Shown here: one piece after another, positions 21,123-46,492 of the stretch
How positions within the stretch are numbered: position 1 is the first letter of the stretch
How the letters are laid out: every line of letters begins with the position of its first letter
Source of the DNA: Candidatus Moraniibacteriota bacterium
GTDB taxonomy: Bacteria; Patescibacteriota; Minisyncoccia; Moranbacterales; UBA1568
Direction of reading: 5' to 3'
DNA: 64,000 bases
Assembly (NCBI GenBank): GCA_018499985.2
Contig: JAHBAT020000003.1
Coordinates: forward strand, 1-64,000
Translations under genes and position numbers: made by a program
The notes under the pieces: model-generated
The model's database searches: none
The model's input: only the letters and a program-made list of their open reading frames with translations
What the model was told of the DNA's origin: nothing

Positions 21123-22193
21123 TTAAGTTGGGGGAAGTGAATATTTATATGGAGGTGGTGAAGGCGTACCGCCTGTAGTCGTATTAACCTGGTTTAGTCT
21201 ATCATTTACTATTCCTGCAGCTGGACCCACTACAGACTGCACCTTATTGATTTCACCGCTGATTTGACGATCAACATTGATAATCTCTCTTCGGATTTTA
21301 TTTTGAATATCTCCTACACCCTTTTGTACCAAGTTTGATACCGTACGATTAACCACTGATACCACGACTCCGGAAAGGAACTCTCCTGGATTATCAGCGC
21401 CCACAATTATCTTATTACCCAAAGTAGTAACATCATTCACAAGACTCTCGATAGAGCCTGCTGGAGTAATGATATTACCATCCTTATCAGTGCCCGGTAA
21501 GAATCCAGAAGACTGTGCTTTAATCTCTTGTTCTCTGAGCGTCCTTTCGTATTCTGCATTATATGTACCCTCTGCAAGCAAAGCTATACCTATAGGATTA
21601 TTGGCGCTGTTATTAAAAAGACATCCGATTGCCTTTGTGCCAGCATTACCGGCTTGAATAGCTAGCCTTGGATCATTACCACCAGTACTACACTCTGCAA
21701 AATTATTTGCTTGAACATTTTTACGAGCAGCGACAGTATCTCGAACAATTTTCTCTAAGTAAGCATCATAACTCCCTCCTTTGTTTAGACCACTCACTTC
21801 ACCATTGGCAACGTAGTTAGCACTTGCCCCCTTTCCGCGGAGTGTTTGTGTCAAAAGATCCCCCACTACTGCCTGCTCTGCATTTTGCTCTGCTGTTTTA
21901 GTGAGGAGCTCACGAAAATCTGTAATAATTTTTGGCTGAGAACCATCCCCTCCTACAAATTGCATCACCTGAGTATTGAGAAGTTGCACAGCGGCTACTT
22001 TTAAAGTTCCAAGCAATGCACCTTCAATGGTACGTGAGATATTTTCCATAGTCTGCTTCATAATAGAAGCAGCGATAGCTTCACCCCAAGCTCCAGCATG
22101 AACAGGTGTAGCCGGAAGAGCAAAGAGCCCTAAAGCTAAAACTAGTACTACCTGTGTTCGTAAAAATTTTTCTTTTACTTTTTTCAGTATCAT
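21123..22193 (-). CDS. Hypothetical secreted protein
   Basis: Signal peptide LVLALGLFALPATPVHAGA; 356-aa ORF; no confident family. Confidence 0.7.
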   Translation of the reverse strand: MILKKVKEKFLRTQVVLVLALGLFALPATPVHAGAWGEAIAASIMKQTMENISRTIEGALLGTLKVAAVQLLNTQVMQFVGGDGSQPKIITDFRELLTKTAEQNAEQAVVGDLLTQTLRGKGASANYVANGEVSGLNKGGSYDAYLEKIVRDTVAARKNVQANNFAECSTGGNDPRLAIQAGNAGTKAIGCLFNNSANNPIGIALLAEGTYNAEYERTLREQEIKAQSSGFLPGTDKDGNIITPAGSIESLVNDVTTLGNKIIVGADNPGEFLSGVVVSVVNRTVSNLVQKGVGDIQNKIRREIINVDRQISGEINKVQSVVGPAAGIVNDRLNQVNTTTGGTPSPPPYKYSLPPT

Positions 22194-22196
22194 AGA

Positions 22197-23282
22197 CTAA
22201 AGTTCAAGAGGAATAGTATCTATTTCATATTTTTTGAGAGCGCCTTGTACATCATCCACAAACTGAGCCGTAACACCCAAAAGAGCCTGCATACGAGAAA
22301 GCGCCGCTATCTGCCCAATCGGATCATCTCCATCTGTTTTGATATCTTTCTTAAGCGAAGCTGCGTACAATCCCATCTTGAGTGCTTTTACATGAATATC
22401 AAGCATGGCCTCTGGCACTTCTACTTTTTTACTTTCATCCAGTATTTTTTGCCCTCTTTCTGCCAAAGCATTTGTAGCTTCCACATTACCATTTGCGAGT
22501 CCAAGGATCGCCTGACTTGAAAGACTATTCATTACTCCCCCAAACTGATCCTCTGTATTAAATTGTGAAGGAGAGTTATTAGCTACAATATATGACATCA
22601 CTGTAAGGTACTCCAAAACATCTTTTTTTTCTTGAGACTTTCTTTCTTTTTCTTTCAAGTTTTTTGAAGGTGCTTTTTTAATTTTAATCTCCTTCATATC
22701 AACCTCTGGAAGAATAACCTCTGTATTGTTACCACTCATAGCCTGTTCAACAGCACTATTGATTTGATCAAAAGTTACCTCTTTATTGTCATCTGTAACA
22801 CCAGAAAGAACTCCTGCTATTTGAACAGAGACTTTGTTTGTAAGATTATCTTCCGGTGCACTTGATACACTCTCTTTCGCCTTATCTTCAATCTTTACTA
22901 TTCTATCTCCAGGAGCCGGAACCAAAGGATTGTAACCACTTTCGATTTCTACACCATCTGAATATCCGTCTCCATCTGTATCTGCCTTGTTGGCATCAGT
23001 ACCGTAGAGCTTTTCTTCCTGAAGAGAAAGATTATCCTGATCAGCATCTACAAAAATATTTTTACCACTTGTTTGAGATTCTCCACGGACAGCATAAAAA
23101 GTACACCCGAAAAAGAGAACTAGAAACAAAAGAAAAGTTTTTCGCTCTTTAAATAAAGAAAATATAAATGACATATTTTTTGTTTTTTCTATTATATCAC
23201 TCGTAGCTACATCTTTCAAAATATTTTCTCTACCCGCAATATTACCAATATTTATTATGCAATATAAATTATTTATTGTCAA
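22197..23282 (-). CDS. Secreted protein with thrombospondin type-3-like/EF-hand-like calcium-binding repeat
   Basis: DADQDNLSLQEEKLYGTDANKADTDGDGYSDGVEIESGYNPLVP. Confidence 0.75.
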   Translation of the reverse strand: MTINNLYCIINIGNIAGRENILKDVATSDIIEKTKNMSFIFSLFKERKTFLLFLVLFFGCTFYAVRGESQTSGKNIFVDADQDNLSLQEEKLYGTDANKADTDGDGYSDGVEIESGYNPLVPAPGDRIVKIEDKAKESVSSAPEDNLTNKVSVQIAGVLSGVTDDNKEVTFDQINSAVEQAMSGNNTEVILPEVDMKEIKIKKAPSKNLKEKERKSQEKKDVLEYLTVMSYIVANNSPSQFNTEDQFGGVMNSLSSQAILGLANGNVEATNALAERGQKILDESKKVEVPEAMLDIHVKALKMGLYAASLKKDIKTDGDDPIGQIAALSRMQALLGVTAQFVDDVQGALKKYEIDTIPLEL

Positions 23283-24618
23283 GTACTAATGTATTCACAC
23301 TTCCCAAGGCTAAGAAGATCCAAAAAAGGAAAATTCCCTGCGGAAGAGTAAAGAAATAATGATCTCCTAAAGCCAGGATTAGGATAAATACTATCATCAA
23401 CTGTGATCCACATCTCTGTTTCACGTGAAACATTTTTTTTGAAGAGGAGAAGAGTACACCTAAAAAAAGATACGTGTAGACAAGAAGCCCAAAAATACCC
23501 AACTCCCCCAAAACTATCAGAAGGCCGCTATGGACAGGTTGCATGACCCATGGATTCATTGAGGCTTTTAAAGATAGCTCTTGGTAGAAATAACTTGTTC
23601 CGATACCATTTCCAAAAAATGTCACTGCGTTTGTCTTGGCATATTCAATAAGGGAAAATTCTCTTTCATTAAAACTTTTTTGATTCAAAAAAATAATTAT
23701 TCCAAAAATAACTATGGCCAGAATCAGATGTTTCACGTGAAACATATTTCTGTATTTCTCTTTTGTTTCACGTGAAACACTAAGTAAATAAAGGATTCCC
23801 CCTAAAATTAGGGCCACTTTTGAAAATGTTAGAAATAAAGCGATGCTTATGAAAAAGATTCCTAATTGTTTCACGTGAAACATACTAGTAAGTCTACTCC
23901 ATTTTGTTTCACGTGAAACAAAAAAGTCTCTGAAAAGAAATGCCATTGTTAAAGTAAGCAATAGAAAAGCCGCCAAAACATTTGGATGAGGAAAAAGACC
24001 ATAAGCTCGCAGTATTTTATCACCAAAAAAGTTTATTGTAGCAATATTTTGAGATCCAATCTGCAAATGACTTTCACCCAAAAAATATAAATACACATCT
24101 CTCTGGGCAAAAAATTGCAAAATCGCAATAAAAGCATTAAATAGGGCCGAAATATACAGACTCTCTAAAAATAACTGGAAATAATTAGTAAATTTCCATG
24201 TTTCACGTGAAACAATCTTATTTTCTTGTTTCACGTGAAACAAGAAAAGAGTGATTATTCCATAATAAAGAATAATTGCTTCAAAATAAAAAAGAGTATG
24301 CCTAAGAGAAAGGGTTTTATCAGGAGAAAAAATAATTGAGAGTAGACTCAAAATCAAAACAGTTAGGGGAGCAAGTATCTGTATTCTGTTTTGTTTCACG
24401 TGAAACATTTCCCGTATACTTGACAATAGTATACTTTCATTGTATATTATTATGAAAAGTATGACGAGGAATGCTATATCGAATGCGTAGATCGATATAT
24501 CTAAATATTCACTATAAAAAAGGCTTCCGAGAACATTCGGGATCAAAACATACTGCACATTCAAGAGAAAGCTTATCCCTAAGAAAATCAGGCTGATTTT
24601 TTTGAAAAAAATACTCAC
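23269..24618 (-). CDS. O-antigen ligase/polymerase-like multi-TM protein carrying eight embedded parS-type sites
   Basis: Multi-TM ORF; late segment LRAYGLFPHPNVLAAFLLLTLTM and FFGNGIGTSYFYQELSLK...QPVHSGLLIVLGELGIFGLLVY is typical of Wzy/O-antigen ligases. Confidence 0.82.
   Translation of the reverse strand: MSIFFKKISLIFLGISFLLNVQYVLIPNVLGSLFYSEYLDISIYAFDIAFLVILFIIIYNESILLSSIREMFHVKQNRIQILAPLTVLILSLLSIIFSPDKTLSLRHTLFYFEAIILYYGIITLFLFHVKQENKIVSRETWKFTNYFQLFLESLYISALFNAFIAILQFFAQRDVYLYFLGESHLQIGSQNIATINFFGDKILRAYGLFPHPNVLAAFLLLTLTMAFLFRDFFVSRETKWSRLTSMFHVKQLGIFFISIALFLTFSKVALILGGILYLLSVSRETKEKYRNMFHVKHLILAIVIFGIIIFLNQKSFNEREFSLIEYAKTNAVTFFGNGIGTSYFYQELSLKASMNPWVMQPVHSGLLIVLGELGIFGLLVYTYLFLGVLFSSSKKMFHVKQRCGSQLMIVFILILALGDHYFFTLPQGIFLFWIFLALGSVNTLVLDNK
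23417..23432. promoter_or_regulatory. parS-type site TGTTTCACGTGAAACA (1)
   Basis: Exact 16-bp palindrome. Confidence 0.9.
23729..23744. promoter_or_regulatory. parS-type site TGTTTCACGTGAAACA (2)
   Basis: Exact 16-bp palindrome. Confidence 0.9.
23764..23779. promoter_or_regulatory. parS-type site TGTTTCACGTGAAACA (3)
   Basis: Exact 16-bp palindrome. Confidence 0.9.
23867..23882. promoter_or_regulatory. parS-type site TGTTTCACGTGAAACA (4)
   Basis: Exact 16-bp palindrome. Confidence 0.9.
23905..23920. promoter_or_regulatory. parS-type site TGTTTCACGTGAAACA (5)
   Basis: Exact 16-bp palindrome. Confidence 0.9.
24199..24214. promoter_or_regulatory. parS-type site TGTTTCACGTGAAACA (6)
   Basis: Exact 16-bp palindrome. 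Confidence 0.9.
24227..24242. promoter_or_regulatory. parS-type site TGTTTCACGTGAAACA (7)
   Basis: Exact 16-bp palindrome. Confidence 0.9.
24392..24407. promoter_or_regulatory. parS-type site TGTTTCACGTGAAACA (8)
   Basis: Exact 16-bp palindrome. Confidence 0.9.
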
Positions 24619-24996: not shown

Positions 24997-25329
24997 ATGT
25001 CACTTCGTATTACCAAAGTCAATGATCTCTTGCGAGATTTGATTTCTGAAGCCCTTGTATCAGAGGTTTCCTTTAAGCAGGGTGTTTTTGCGACTGTTAC
25101 AAAGATTCGTACTTCCAAAGATCTTCGTCAGGCCTTTTTTTCTGTCAGCATATTTCCTGAATCAGAGACTCACTATGTCGAAGAAACTCTTAAAAAAGAA
25201 CTTTCCCAAATAGAGAAGTTTGTTCATGGTCGTCTCTATATGAAACCTCTTCCCCGTTTGAAATTTGAAGTAGACAGTACAGCACTTAATGCTGATGCTG
25301 TAGAAAAAATACTCTTCTCTCTTTCCTAA
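24997..25329 (+). CDS. rbfA: Ribosome-binding factor A
   Basis: RITKVNDLLRDLISEAL...VTKIRTSKDLRQAFFSVS...LPRLKFEVD. Confidence 0.9.
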   Translation: MSLRITKVNDLLRDLISEALVSEVSFKQGVFATVTKIRTSKDLRQAFFSVSIFPESETHYVEETLKKELSQIEKFVHGRLYMKPLPRLKFEVDSTALNADAVEKILFSLS

Positions 25330-25332
25330 GCT

Positions 25333-26292
25333 ATGCAGAAGTTTGATTCTCAGTTTAAAACGCTTGAGTACATTGTCGCTAAAGCTGAAAATATCCTCCT
25401 GGTAGCTCACACCCGGCCCGATCCTGACACAGTCGGTTCAAACAGTGCTTTTCATGAGCACTTAGTTGCTCTGGGAAAAAACGTTACTATCGCTTGCTAC
25501 GATGAATTTCCGCAAGTTCTCTTGCCACTTGGTGAAAAAAAATTTGTTCATCCAGAAACCCTGGACCTCAAACCTTTTGACGCTGTTTTTGCTCTAGACA
25601 GTGTTGACAGGGGATTCCATCTTTTTCGAGAGAAGCTTAGCGATGATCAAGTTGTTGTGCTCATGGACCATCATCCAGACATAGAACTTCTCGGGGATGT
25701 GGTCATTATTGATGCAGATTACTCATCTACAAGTGAGCTCCTCTATCTTTATTTCAAGCAAACTGGAGCAAGAATCACCAAGCGTATGGCTACATACTTA
25801 CTTGCGGGTCTCGTTTTTGATACCGGGGGATTTAAGCACTCTAAAGTGACTCCCGCAGTGATGGAAATGGCCTCTACTCTGATGCAAAAGGGCGCCCCTC
25901 TCGATAAAGTCTCTCAGATAATTTTTGCTCATCGCAATATCGCTGCTCTTCGTCTATGGGGAAAGGCTATAGAAAAAGCTCGTCTTTATCCAGAAAATGG
26001 CATGCTTGTAACTGCTGTCACCCAAGAAGAGATTCTCGAGTGCGAAGCTTCAGCTGAAGACATCTATCAAGTCACATCTATTCTCAGTACCGTCCCTGAT
26101 GCCAAATTTGCCCTTGTGCTCTCTGAAAGAGACGCTTCTACTGTACGTGGTAGCTTACGCTCCATGGATCACCATGGAGTCGATGTTTCTCAAATTGCCC
26201 ATGCCTTTGGTGGGGGAGGCCACGTGCTTGCGAGTGGCTTTGAAATACCTGGTAAAATAGTTGATACTGGTGAAGGCTTCCTTATTATGTAA
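25333..26292 (+). CDS. DHH-family phosphoesterase (NrnA-like)
   Basis: VAHTRPDPDTVGSNSAF, MDHHPDIE, C-terminal AFGGGGHVLASGF. Confidence 0.93.
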   Translation: MQKFDSQFKTLEYIVAKAENILLVAHTRPDPDTVGSNSAFHEHLVALGKNVTIACYDEFPQVLLPLGEKKFVHPETLDLKPFDAVFALDSVDRGFHLFREKLSDDQVVVLMDHHPDIELLGDVVIIDADYSSTSELLYLYFKQTGARITKRMATYLLAGLVFDTGGFKHSKVTPAVMEMASTLMQKGAPLDKVSQIIFAHRNIAALRLWGKAIEKARLYPENGMLVTAVTQEEILECEASAEDIYQVTSILSTVPDAKFALVLSERDASTVRGSLRSMDHHGVDVSQIAHAFGGGGHVLASGFEIPGKIVDTGEGFLIM

Positions 26293-37620: not shown

Positions 37621-38838
37621 CTAAGCCCCCTCCCCCTGTCTCATACTATAGGCATACGTCAGGTACGCCTGTGTCCAAAACAAAAAAGCAAGATCATTCC
37701 TAAAATAGGGTGTATCAAATAGCCCGTACAAGAAAAAACTCACCCAAAGTGCCACAAGCACAAGGGCTTCTTTGTTTTTATCAAGATTATCTCGCCTCAT
37801 TCTCTGCCAAAAAATAAAACCTAATCTACCAAAGATAGTACCTATACCCAAAAGCCCAAGCAATCCTGCCTGAAGCCAAACAGCAAGTATAAAATTATGT
37901 GGCTGTGGCACAGCCCATTCAAGGTACGGAGGAAACTTTTCTTGATATTTTAAATATACCTCTTGAAAATTTCCTATACCAACTCCATTTATTGGATGGT
38001 CCTTAGCTATAGTCAGAGCTGATTGCCAAATCATAAGACGAGAATGTACAGAAGACCGTCCATTTTGACTGAAAATATCCTTCCATTTTGGCTCATCCTT
38101 TTCCGAAAACACAAAAAGACTTATAGCCACAGCAATTAGGGCAATGATACTTAAAAATCTTTTTAAGGAAAGCTGTTTTTTTCGTAGAAAAGTGCTGAGA
38201 AAAAAAGTCATGCTCACAGCACCTGCTCCTAAAAGAGCAATCCAAGCATTGTACGAATGTGTTTGATAGAGTACGAAAGCGCTTATACCTACTAGAAAAA
38301 GAACTCCTTTTCTTTGCCATCCAGATCCTTTGTATAGCAAGAAGGAGCCAATGAAGATAGCTGGCGTTACCAAATAGGCCAGAAAATTTGGCGACGTATA
38401 CGGAAAGGCGAGACGCTCGTCATAGGTAAGATACCCTCGGAAATAGCCGAGGAGAGCTATCAGCGAAATCAGAGAGCTCCCCAAAAACCAACCTCTCCAC
38501 ATGGCCACCCTCTTATCAAAAGAAAAAAGACTTAGTGCCAAAAAGAAATAGAGCACTGGAAAGAAAAACCATGATTTTAGCATGCCTAATTCAGTATATC
38601 CCCATGAATTAAGCAGTGTAGAAAAAAGAGCGCCTGCCAAAAAAATAAAACTGCCAAAAAGAATACCCTTATCTATTTTCTTCATTTCTGACTTCACTTT
38701 TTCTTTCAAAAGAATTCCAAGGGTCAGCAAAAAGATAATTTCCAACCCATACAGGGGCATTCCTCCAATCACAATTTTTTCTAGAGCCAAGAATTGAAAA
38801 AAAATAATACACGGAAAGATTTTATCGAAAGTAATCAT
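37621..38838 (-). CDS. O-antigen ligase family protein
   Basis: Multi-TM; ALTIAKDHPINGVGIGNFQEVY...PQPHNFILAVWLQAGLLGLLG. Confidence 0.85.
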   Translation of the reverse strand: MITFDKIFPCIIFFQFLALEKIVIGGMPLYGLEIIFLLTLGILLKEKVKSEMKKIDKGILFGSFIFLAGALFSTLLNSWGYTELGMLKSWFFFPVLYFFLALSLFSFDKRVAMWRGWFLGSSLISLIALLGYFRGYLTYDERLAFPYTSPNFLAYLVTPAIFIGSFLLYKGSGWQRKGVLFLVGISAFVLYQTHSYNAWIALLGAGAVSMTFFLSTFLRKKQLSLKRFLSIIALIAVAISLFVFSEKDEPKWKDIFSQNGRSSVHSRLMIWQSALTIAKDHPINGVGIGNFQEVYLKYQEKFPPYLEWAVPQPHNFILAVWLQAGLLGLLGIGTIFGRLGFIFWQRMRRDNLDKNKEALVLVALWVSFFLYGLFDTPYFRNDLAFLFWTQAYLTYAYSMRQGEGA

Positions 38839-38842
38839 ACTT

Positions 38843-40099
38843 TTACGTTTTTATGTCACTTTTCACAAAACAGGCAGCTATTATCAAAAGAAAAACTGGT
38901 AAAACGTGCACAGAGAAAATTGGCGCCTCAAAAAATCCATGCACAAGGAAATACACCAAGGCTATATGTAGAGCCAAATAAAATGGGTCTTTACTCAATT
39001 TCCATTTTTGAAAACTTTCGAAGAGGGCTCCAAATACAGCTATCAGGAAAAGACTTAGTCCGACAAGTCCAAGCTCTGCCGCTATATCGAGATACAGGTT
39101 GTGCGCATAGATTGGCTCCCTCGATAGAGCTTCAGGCTTTACCCAAAGTGGGTAATTACCTACACCGACACCCAAAAATGGTCGCTCTCTGATAGCTTCC
39201 AGAGCTGTATAAGCCAACTGTACCCTCTCGCTACGGGAGCCATCACCTGAAGTAAAACTTGAAATAAAACGATTGCCTACAGGAGAAACAAGAGCAAAAA
39301 GGGAGATACTGCTTGCTGCTATTATCCATAAAGCTATTTTTTGTTTTTTCTCAAAAAAGAATATGAGTAGCAAAAACCATAAAAAGCTCGCTGCAATTGC
39401 CACATAACCACCTCGGGAAAATGAAAGAAGTAAACCTAAAAATAAAAGCAACGATACCAAACGAGACCAACCAAAAAAATTCTTTTTCCAATAAAGACAT
39501 GTAAAAGGGATAGCCATGGCAACATAATAGCTGAAAATATGCGGGTCTGGAAAAAAACCAGTGGCACGAAAATACGTTTTTCCTAAAATATTCACCAATA
39601 AGCTCGGGTATGTCGCTACTGAAGCAGCAAAATTACTTCCAAGAAAAAATGGCAGCAGCTTCTCTGTCCAAAAAAGTAGCACCACTCCAGGATCTACTAC
39701 TAACTGTAAAAGACTCTGTAAAATAGCAACCGAAGAAATACCGACCGCCCCACCAACATACCAGCGAAAAATCCTTTTAAAAGTAGTTTCCTTTTGTCCA
39801 ATGAGAACAATGAATAAAAGGAGAAAATTTATTAAGAAAAAGATTTTTCTATATGACCAGCCTGGATCAATAGCCCAAACAAAAGAAAGGGTACTCCAAA
39901 AAAACCAGCCAAGAAAGGCAAATGTCGACAAAGATAAACTTATAAAGAAACTCTTTTTCAACAAAACCTGTCCCATAAAAAAGAAAAAAAGGGCTATTAT
40001 AACAATTCGTATAATAGGCAAGTCTACAGATGCTATTGGATTTAAAGCAAAGTTAAGAGGAAGGAGGAGATAGAAATAGCTAAGCAAAGCAAGTATCAT
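38843..40099 (-). CDS. O-antigen ligase family protein
   Basis: Multi-TM; ALEAIRERPFLGVGVGNYPLW...YAHNLYLDIAAELGLVGL. Confidence 0.87.
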   Translation of the reverse strand: MILALLSYFYLLLPLNFALNPIASVDLPIIRIVIIALFFFFMGQVLLKKSFFISLSLSTFAFLGWFFWSTLSFVWAIDPGWSYRKIFFLINFLLLFIVLIGQKETTFKRIFRWYVGGAVGISSVAILQSLLQLVVDPGVVLLFWTEKLLPFFLGSNFAASVATYPSLLVNILGKTYFRATGFFPDPHIFSYYVAMAIPFTCLYWKKNFFGWSRLVSLLLFLGLLLSFSRGGYVAIAASFLWFLLLIFFFEKKQKIALWIIAASSISLFALVSPVGNRFISSFTSGDGSRSERVQLAYTALEAIRERPFLGVGVGNYPLWVKPEALSREPIYAHNLYLDIAAELGLVGLSLFLIAVFGALFESFQKWKLSKDPFYLALHIALVYFLVHGFFEAPIFSVHVLPVFLLIIAACFVKSDIKT

Positions 40100-45049: not shown

Positions 45050-46492
45050 ATGACTCACGATGACCTCTGGAAGGCTGTCCTTGGCCAAATTGAACTTTCC
45101 CTTTCGAAAGCCAACTTTATTACCTGGTTTAAAAACACCAACCTTTTAGAGGTCAGTGATGGCAAGGCCCTTATTGGTGTGCCGAATGGTTTTGCTAAAG
45201 AATGGCTAGAAAACAAGTATAATACCCATATTTTAAAAGCCCTTCGGACCCTTGATCCTTCAATTCAAAGCATCCGTTGCACTATTTCTCTCTCTGATCC
45301 ACACACAAACCAGCAGCCCAAACCTATTAGCCGTTCTATTGACGCTGCCATTCCTCGGAACGAAAACACTGAGACGGCCAATAGTTTTGTACGAAAAAAG
45401 CTCATAGAAAAACCTTCATTTTCATCTGAAGGTACTTCTGTCTCTCTTCAAAAAGAGGTTTTTCATGAGAGCAGCCTTAATTCTCGCTATACTTTTGAAA
45501 ATTACATTGTTGCGGAGAACAATGAACTTGCTCACGCCGCCTGCCACGCCGTCTCTCAAAACCTTGGTATGCTTTACAACCCTCTCTTTATTTATGGTGG
45601 CGTAGGCTTAGGAAAAACCCATCTTTTACAGTCTATTGGCAATGAAGTAATGCGCAATCATCCCGAAAAACGCATTAAATACATTACCTCTGAGCGTTTT
45701 ACCACAGAACTTGTTGATTCTATTAAAAATCAAAAAATTGACATCTTTAAAGAATATTATCAGCAAATGGACCTCCTTATTATAGATGATGTTCAATTTC
45801 TTTCTGGGAGAGAAAAAACTCAAAATGAGTTTTTTCATATTTTTAACGCTCTCTACCAAATAAACAAGCAGATTGTTATCTCTAGCGATCGTCCACCTAA
45901 AGCTATTGGTACTCTTGAAGAACGTCTCCGTTCTCGCTTTGAGGGTGGAATGATTACAGATATCAGTCAACCAAGCCTTGAAACTCGTATTGCTATTCTT
46001 AGTTCAAAAGTTCAAGAAAAAGGTCTTTCTATCGATGAGGACGCCCTTCGTTTTATAGCTCAAAATATCAACCAAAATGTTCGCGAACTTGAAGGTGCTC
46101 TCAATCGCGTAATTGCTTATTGTGATTTTCGTAAAATACCTGCCAACTTAGCTAATACAGAAAAAATTCTTGTTGAACTCCTTGAAAAAAACCGTAAAAA
46201 TATCAGTACTGAGAGTGTTTTTAGCACTATTTGTGAGTATTACTCTGTAGAACATGAAGATTTAATTAAAAAAGGGCGTAAAAAGGAAATTTCTCATCCT
46301 CGTCAGGTTCTTATGTACATCTTAAGACAAGAACTCTCTACCCCATTTTCTACTATTGGCGACATGCTTGGAGGAAGAGATCATACCACTGTACTTCATG
46401 CTTTTGAAAAAATAAACAAAGAAAAAGAAACTTCTCCTAAGATAAAAGAGGAATTAAACCAAATCAAAGAGCGCCTTTATTATATTTCTTAG
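45050..46492 (+). CDS. dnaA: Chromosomal replication initiator DnaA
   Basis: NPLFIYGGVGLGKTHLLQSIGNEV, LLIIDDVQFLSGREKTQNEFFHIFNAL, GGRDHTTVLHAFEKI. Confidence 0.99.
   Translation: MTHDDLWKAVLGQIELSLSKANFITWFKNTNLLEVSDGKALIGVPNGFAKEWLENKYNTHILKALRTLDPSIQSIRCTISLSDPHTNQQPKPISRSIDAAIPRNENTETANSFVRKKLIEKPSFSSEGTSVSLQKEVFHESSLNSRYTFENYIVAENNELAHAACHAVSQNLGMLYNPLFIYGGVGLGKTHLLQSIGNEVMRNHPEKRIKYITSERFTTELVDSIKNQKIDIFKEYYQQMDLLIIDDVQFLSGREKTQNEFFHIFNALYQINKQIVISSDRPPKAIGTLEERLRSRFEGGMITDISQPSLETRIAILSSKVQEKGLSIDEDALRFIAQNINQNVRELEGALNRVIAYCDFRKIPANLANTEKILVELLEKNRKNISTESVFSTICEYYSVEHEDLIKKGRKKEISHPRQVLMYILRQELSTPFSTIGDMLGGRDHTTVLHAFEKINKEKETSPKIKEELNQIKERLYYIS

Follow-up and report, generated by a model that had tools for sequence, protein, structure and literature searches.

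Chromosomal ParABS (Spo0J/ParB-parS) systems, such as those of B. subtilis and Caulobacter, act through a 16-bp palindromic site, parS, located near the origin. In Myxococcus xanthus, 22 sites are clustered in about 3 kb near the origin (PMC3899335), while the ten sites of Pseudomonas aeruginosa lie in different places, four of them near oriC (PMC4368675). Nine of the ten P. aeruginosa sites are predicted to lie within coding sequences, and a single site seems to suffice for segregation (PMC4368675). Partition sites within coding sequence are also known from the Streptomyces plasmid SCP2, where the site is inside its own parT gene (PMC12260392), and from archaeal SegB, where the sites are scattered over many genes (PMC12284271).

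In a genome of Candidatus Moranbacteria, eight parS-type sites lie inside one gene for an O-antigen-ligase-like membrane protein, and none were found elsewhere in the assembly. The palindrome and the origin-proximal location are those of the B. subtilis and Caulobacter systems, and canonical ParB and ParA are present in relatives. In contrast with those systems, all sites of the chromosome lie inside one coding sequence and parAB is not beside the cluster, being about 132 kb away in the near-closed genome of one relative (G017). The M. xanthus cluster is similarly dense but is not described, in the text consulted, as lying within one conserved gene, whereas here the cluster is inside one orthologous ORF across most of an order. 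The P. aeruginosa sites are likewise mostly predicted to be intragenic but are not concentrated in one gene. Neither the SCP2 site nor the SegB sites form a ParB-parS multi-site cluster in an unrelated gene. No report of a whole chromosomal cluster inside one conserved gene, nor any paper on parS with ParB in Patescibacteria, was found among the open-access papers searched.

The parS-type cluster and its host gene

The window analyzed is the stretch of 64,000 nucleotides formed by bases 1-64000 of a 78,999-bp contig (C16) in an assembly of 891,858 bp, 24 contigs and 98.6% completeness. The following features of the window are relevant to the cluster.

21123..22193, minus strand: conserved uncharacterised gene with no Pfam hit, next left neighbour
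22197..23282, minus strand: TSP3-repeat protein gene (Pfam TSP3_bac), conserved left neighbour
23269..24618, minus strand: O-antigen-ligase-like (Wzy_C/WaaL-fold, predicted) membrane protein gene, 449 aa, GTG start, host of all eight sites
23417..23432, no strand assigned: parS-type site read as MFHVKQ (residues 396-401), in pLDDT<50 segment 392-405
23729..23744, no strand assigned: parS-type site read as MFHVKH (292-297), bordering pLDDT<50 segment 288-292
23764..23779, no strand assigned: parS-type site read as VSRET (281-285), in or near a loop between predicted helices
23867..23882, no strand assigned: parS-type site read as MFHVKQ (246-251), overlapping pLDDT<50 segment 243-247
23905..23920, no strand assigned: parS-type site read as VSRET (234-238), in low-confidence block 231-250
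24199..24214, no strand assigned: parS-type site read as VSRET (136-140), in pLDDT<50 segment 130-141
24227..24242, no strand assigned: parS-type site read as LFHVKQ (126-131), overlapping the edge of pLDDT<50 segment 130-141
24392..24407, no strand assigned: parS-type site read as MFHVKQ (71-76), at the break between predicted helices 61-73 and 75-97
24997..25329, plus strand: rbfA-like gene (named from reading of the sequence), conserved right neighbour
25333..26292, plus strand: DHH-family phosphoesterase-like gene (named from reading of the sequence), conserved right neighbour
45050..46492, plus strand: dnaA
46733..47887, plus strand: dnaN

An earlier note had reported eight perfect parS-type sites in this ORF, with no full copy elsewhere in the window, and had proposed that they may be the centromere of the chromosome. 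The observation is exact. All eight TGTTTCACGTGAAACA sites are perfect, and the only other matches in the window at up to 3 mismatches are two 3-mismatch sites; dinucleotide shuffles give a mean of 0.28 matches at that tolerance, with a maximum of 2. A scan of the whole assembly detected exactly these eight TGTTNCACGTGAAACA sites and no others. About 0.0003 copies are expected in the genome from base composition, and eight uniformly placed sites would all share one 1,350-bp gene with a probability of about 2e-20; chance and a genome-wide repeat were rejected as explanations. The cluster is 20.6 kb from dnaA, and cumulative GC skew turns at 44-50 kb, consistent with oriC at dnaA/dnaN. The centromere proposal is supported, although the note also treated the clustering as unusual, and clustered chromosomal parS is known from M. 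xanthus. What is unusual is that the whole cluster lies in one coding sequence, conserved as such across most of an order.

The host protein scores 19.6 bits against Pfam Wzy_C (PF04932), below the cut-off of 31.7 bits, while six of seven orthologs tested are above the cut-off and the seventh is at it. An AlphaFold model of medium confidence (pLDDT 69) gives the O-antigen ligase WaaL (7tpg_B) as the best and only significant PDB match (E 6e-4, TM 0.50), and an enzymatic role is inferred from family and fold only. Two further adjacent genes in a glycosyltransferase neighbourhood of the window (37621-40099) appear O-antigen-ligase-like and contain no parS sites, providing a natural contrast within the genome. 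In two relatives, G100 (L038:9238-10893) and G131 (L039:3275-5083), the conserved DHYLWDIWQGQ segment that is C-terminal in other orthologs lies in the middle of the protein. Here and below, G, L and f numbers denote genomes, loci and families, and genus, family and order follow the taxonomy of the genome collection used. Contigs of the relatives G006, G013 and G072 match JACPGV010000004.1, JAQTRS010000003.1 and JAPLXD010000040.1 by length and position of the gene, and all three are titled Ca. Moraniibacteriota.

ParB and the inferred assembly gap

Searches with TIGR00180, PF02195 and a genus ParB query detected no ParB in this assembly, and parA is also missing. In contrast, 129 of 143 relatives have a PF02195 protein. 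In genus mates the gene order is leuS-ntp-glmS-exo-uppP-folD-parA-parB, with small variations. The present genome lacks glmS, exo, uppP, folD, parA and parB together, and one of its contigs (C6) ends in a truncated HAD-like gene right after leuS and the NTP-transferase gene (ntp). The absence of parAB is thus attributed to an assembly gap, inferred from colinearity with relatives. Genomes G002, G005 and G010 show parA or parB broken at contig ends, and a run of N lies beside parA in G006 (L046:5647-9015), suggesting that the region is hard to assemble.

The missing genes and the long branch of the host protein would also fit a lineage that has lost ParABS and retains decaying palindromes. This is very unlikely, as all eight copies are perfect, whereas decay would leave 1- and 2-mismatch copies and none were found in the window. 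The missing block also holds folD, uppP and glmS, and the contig ends exactly there.

The genus ParB is a canonical Spo0J-type protein. Its motif GKSRSTIANTLRLLH...SEGHAR gives R, T, H and G at Caulobacter positions 173, 179, 184 and 201. ParB that binds parS has R and G at 173 and 201, whereas Noc has Q/K/K/R (PMC7383237). The palindromes could instead be operators of a local regulator or of a Noc-like protein, since they lie within one gene and the genus ParB also scores against the Noc model, albeit below its cut-off. This alternative is considered improbable. The sequence is the parS consensus and not the Noc site, the R..G specificity residues match ParB, the sites are spread over 1-1.6 kb of coding sequence instead of lying at a promoter, and the array remains when the gene is gone.

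Distribution across the order

In relatives the sites are often GTTCCACGTGGAAC. Using the pattern GTTYCACGTGRAAC, 112 of 143 relatives have at least one site, while a reversed-pattern control gave one match in all 143 genomes. The best hit per genome was identified with a profile of the host protein. In the 58 genomes with a hit of at least 270 bits, a cut-off chosen after the scores were seen, 371 of 386 genome-wide sites are inside that single ORF, and 8 more are next to it where the frame is interrupted. In contrast, only 5 of 175 sites are inside the ORF in the 35 genomes examined with weaker hits. The host genes form one clade apart from the site-free homologs, with the sister family f11 mostly site-poor.

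The pattern is not universal. Some ParB-bearing relatives, including most of f11 and genomes G004, G022 and G027, have few or no exact sites, so the consensus or the system must vary. The Wzy genes of f11, such as that of G072 (L074), keep 0-1 intact sites and show degenerate or variant palindromes such as GTTTCATATGAAAC, read as VSYET, possibly reflecting a shifted ParB specificity. A separate Doudnabacteria Wzy clade (L105, L113, L127, L150, L175) carries 1-3 parS-type sites inside the gene and none in the flanks examined; hence the arrangement may be older than this order or may have arisen more than once. In a sparse tree the window protein is misplaced, probably by its long branch, whereas with genus mates it groups with them.

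Frame use and constraint on the shared sequence

The palindrome is read in all three frames. Sites of the GG type are distributed 127/89/93 across the frames, and sites of the AA type 19/0/16, the missing frame being the one that holds TGA. The probability of this avoidance is about 7e-7, from (2/3)^35, if sites are treated as independent, which those of related genomes are not. Of 385 occurrences of the resulting peptides, 376 are encoded by the parS sequence, although in the same genes CAC is 36% of His, GTG 18% of Val and CGT 12% of Arg codons. This count is partly conditioned, as the hosts were chosen because they carry sites.

In the 14 closest pairs of genes, dN/dS outside the sites is 0.22-0.36, indicating purifying selection on the protein. 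Of these pairs, 12 have aligned sites, and 9 of the 12 show no synonymous change there against a pS of 0.23-0.49 outside the sites in the same nine pairs. Individual sites turn over, and one pair at 77% identity shares no aligned site. In G006, a 172-nt cassette carrying three sites is duplicated in frame within the Wzy gene (L034:10091-10262 and L034:10835-11006, 98% identical), suggesting how sites multiply.

The flanks of sites are less hydrophobic than other positions (p=1e-25, although positions are not independent), and four of the five lowest-confidence segments of the predicted structure overlap or border site peptides. The sites lie mostly in loops between predicted membrane helices, where inserted peptides (VSRET/VPRGT, FHVK/FHVE, CSTWN) are tolerated. 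The recurrence of these peptides in orthologs of a gene under purifying selection raises the possibility that they are functional motifs of the protein, with the DNA repeat as a by-product. This reading is contradicted by the data and is highly improbable. Three unrelated peptides come from the same DNA in three frames, the frame with TGA is avoided only by the form that contains it, nearly all of the peptides use parS codons, the sites fall in 54 different alignment columns, and arrays persist at the same address without the gene.

The most likely explanation, held with high confidence, is that the eight palindromes are the parS centromere of a chromosomal ParABS system, with ParB binding, clamp loading and a role in segregation inferred. 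In this model, ParB encoded elsewhere on the chromosome, in an operon with parA next to folD/uppP in relatives, would bind the sites, load as a CTP clamp and spread, and allow ParA to move the newly copied origin region. However, the eight sites exceed what segregation seems to need in P. aeruginosa. Selection thus appears to act twice on one stretch, on the protein outside the sites and on the DNA palindrome within them, illustrating how a binding-site array can be carried within a coding sequence in any open frame. The positions also predict where ParB should load in cells that are known mostly from metagenomes. A more speculative and rather unlikely possibility is that the overlap is itself functional, with ParB loading and spreading over the gene controlling expression of the surface-polysaccharide enzyme, thereby coupling envelope assembly to chromosome segregation and keeping the centromere inside this gene.

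The same address without the gene

In family f1, genomes G001, G002, G015-G018, G020, G021, G024 and G026 carry a non-coding parS array between the TSP3 gene and rbfA, where the window has the Wzy gene. No remnant of the Wzy gene was detected in the non-coding arrays once site sequences were masked; short hits near three arrays of family f7 (L268-L270) look like an upstream tRNA read in antisense. The inferred centromere is therefore the constant and the gene the variable, occupying the address in most lineages. An ancestral state with both the gene and parS followed by repeated gene loss would fit this distribution. In the family f10 genomes whose loci reach dnaA, the array lies next to it. 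In G104, a regular non-coding array of nine sites at 59-63 bp spacing lies beside an rbfA-like gene (L274:6521-7023).
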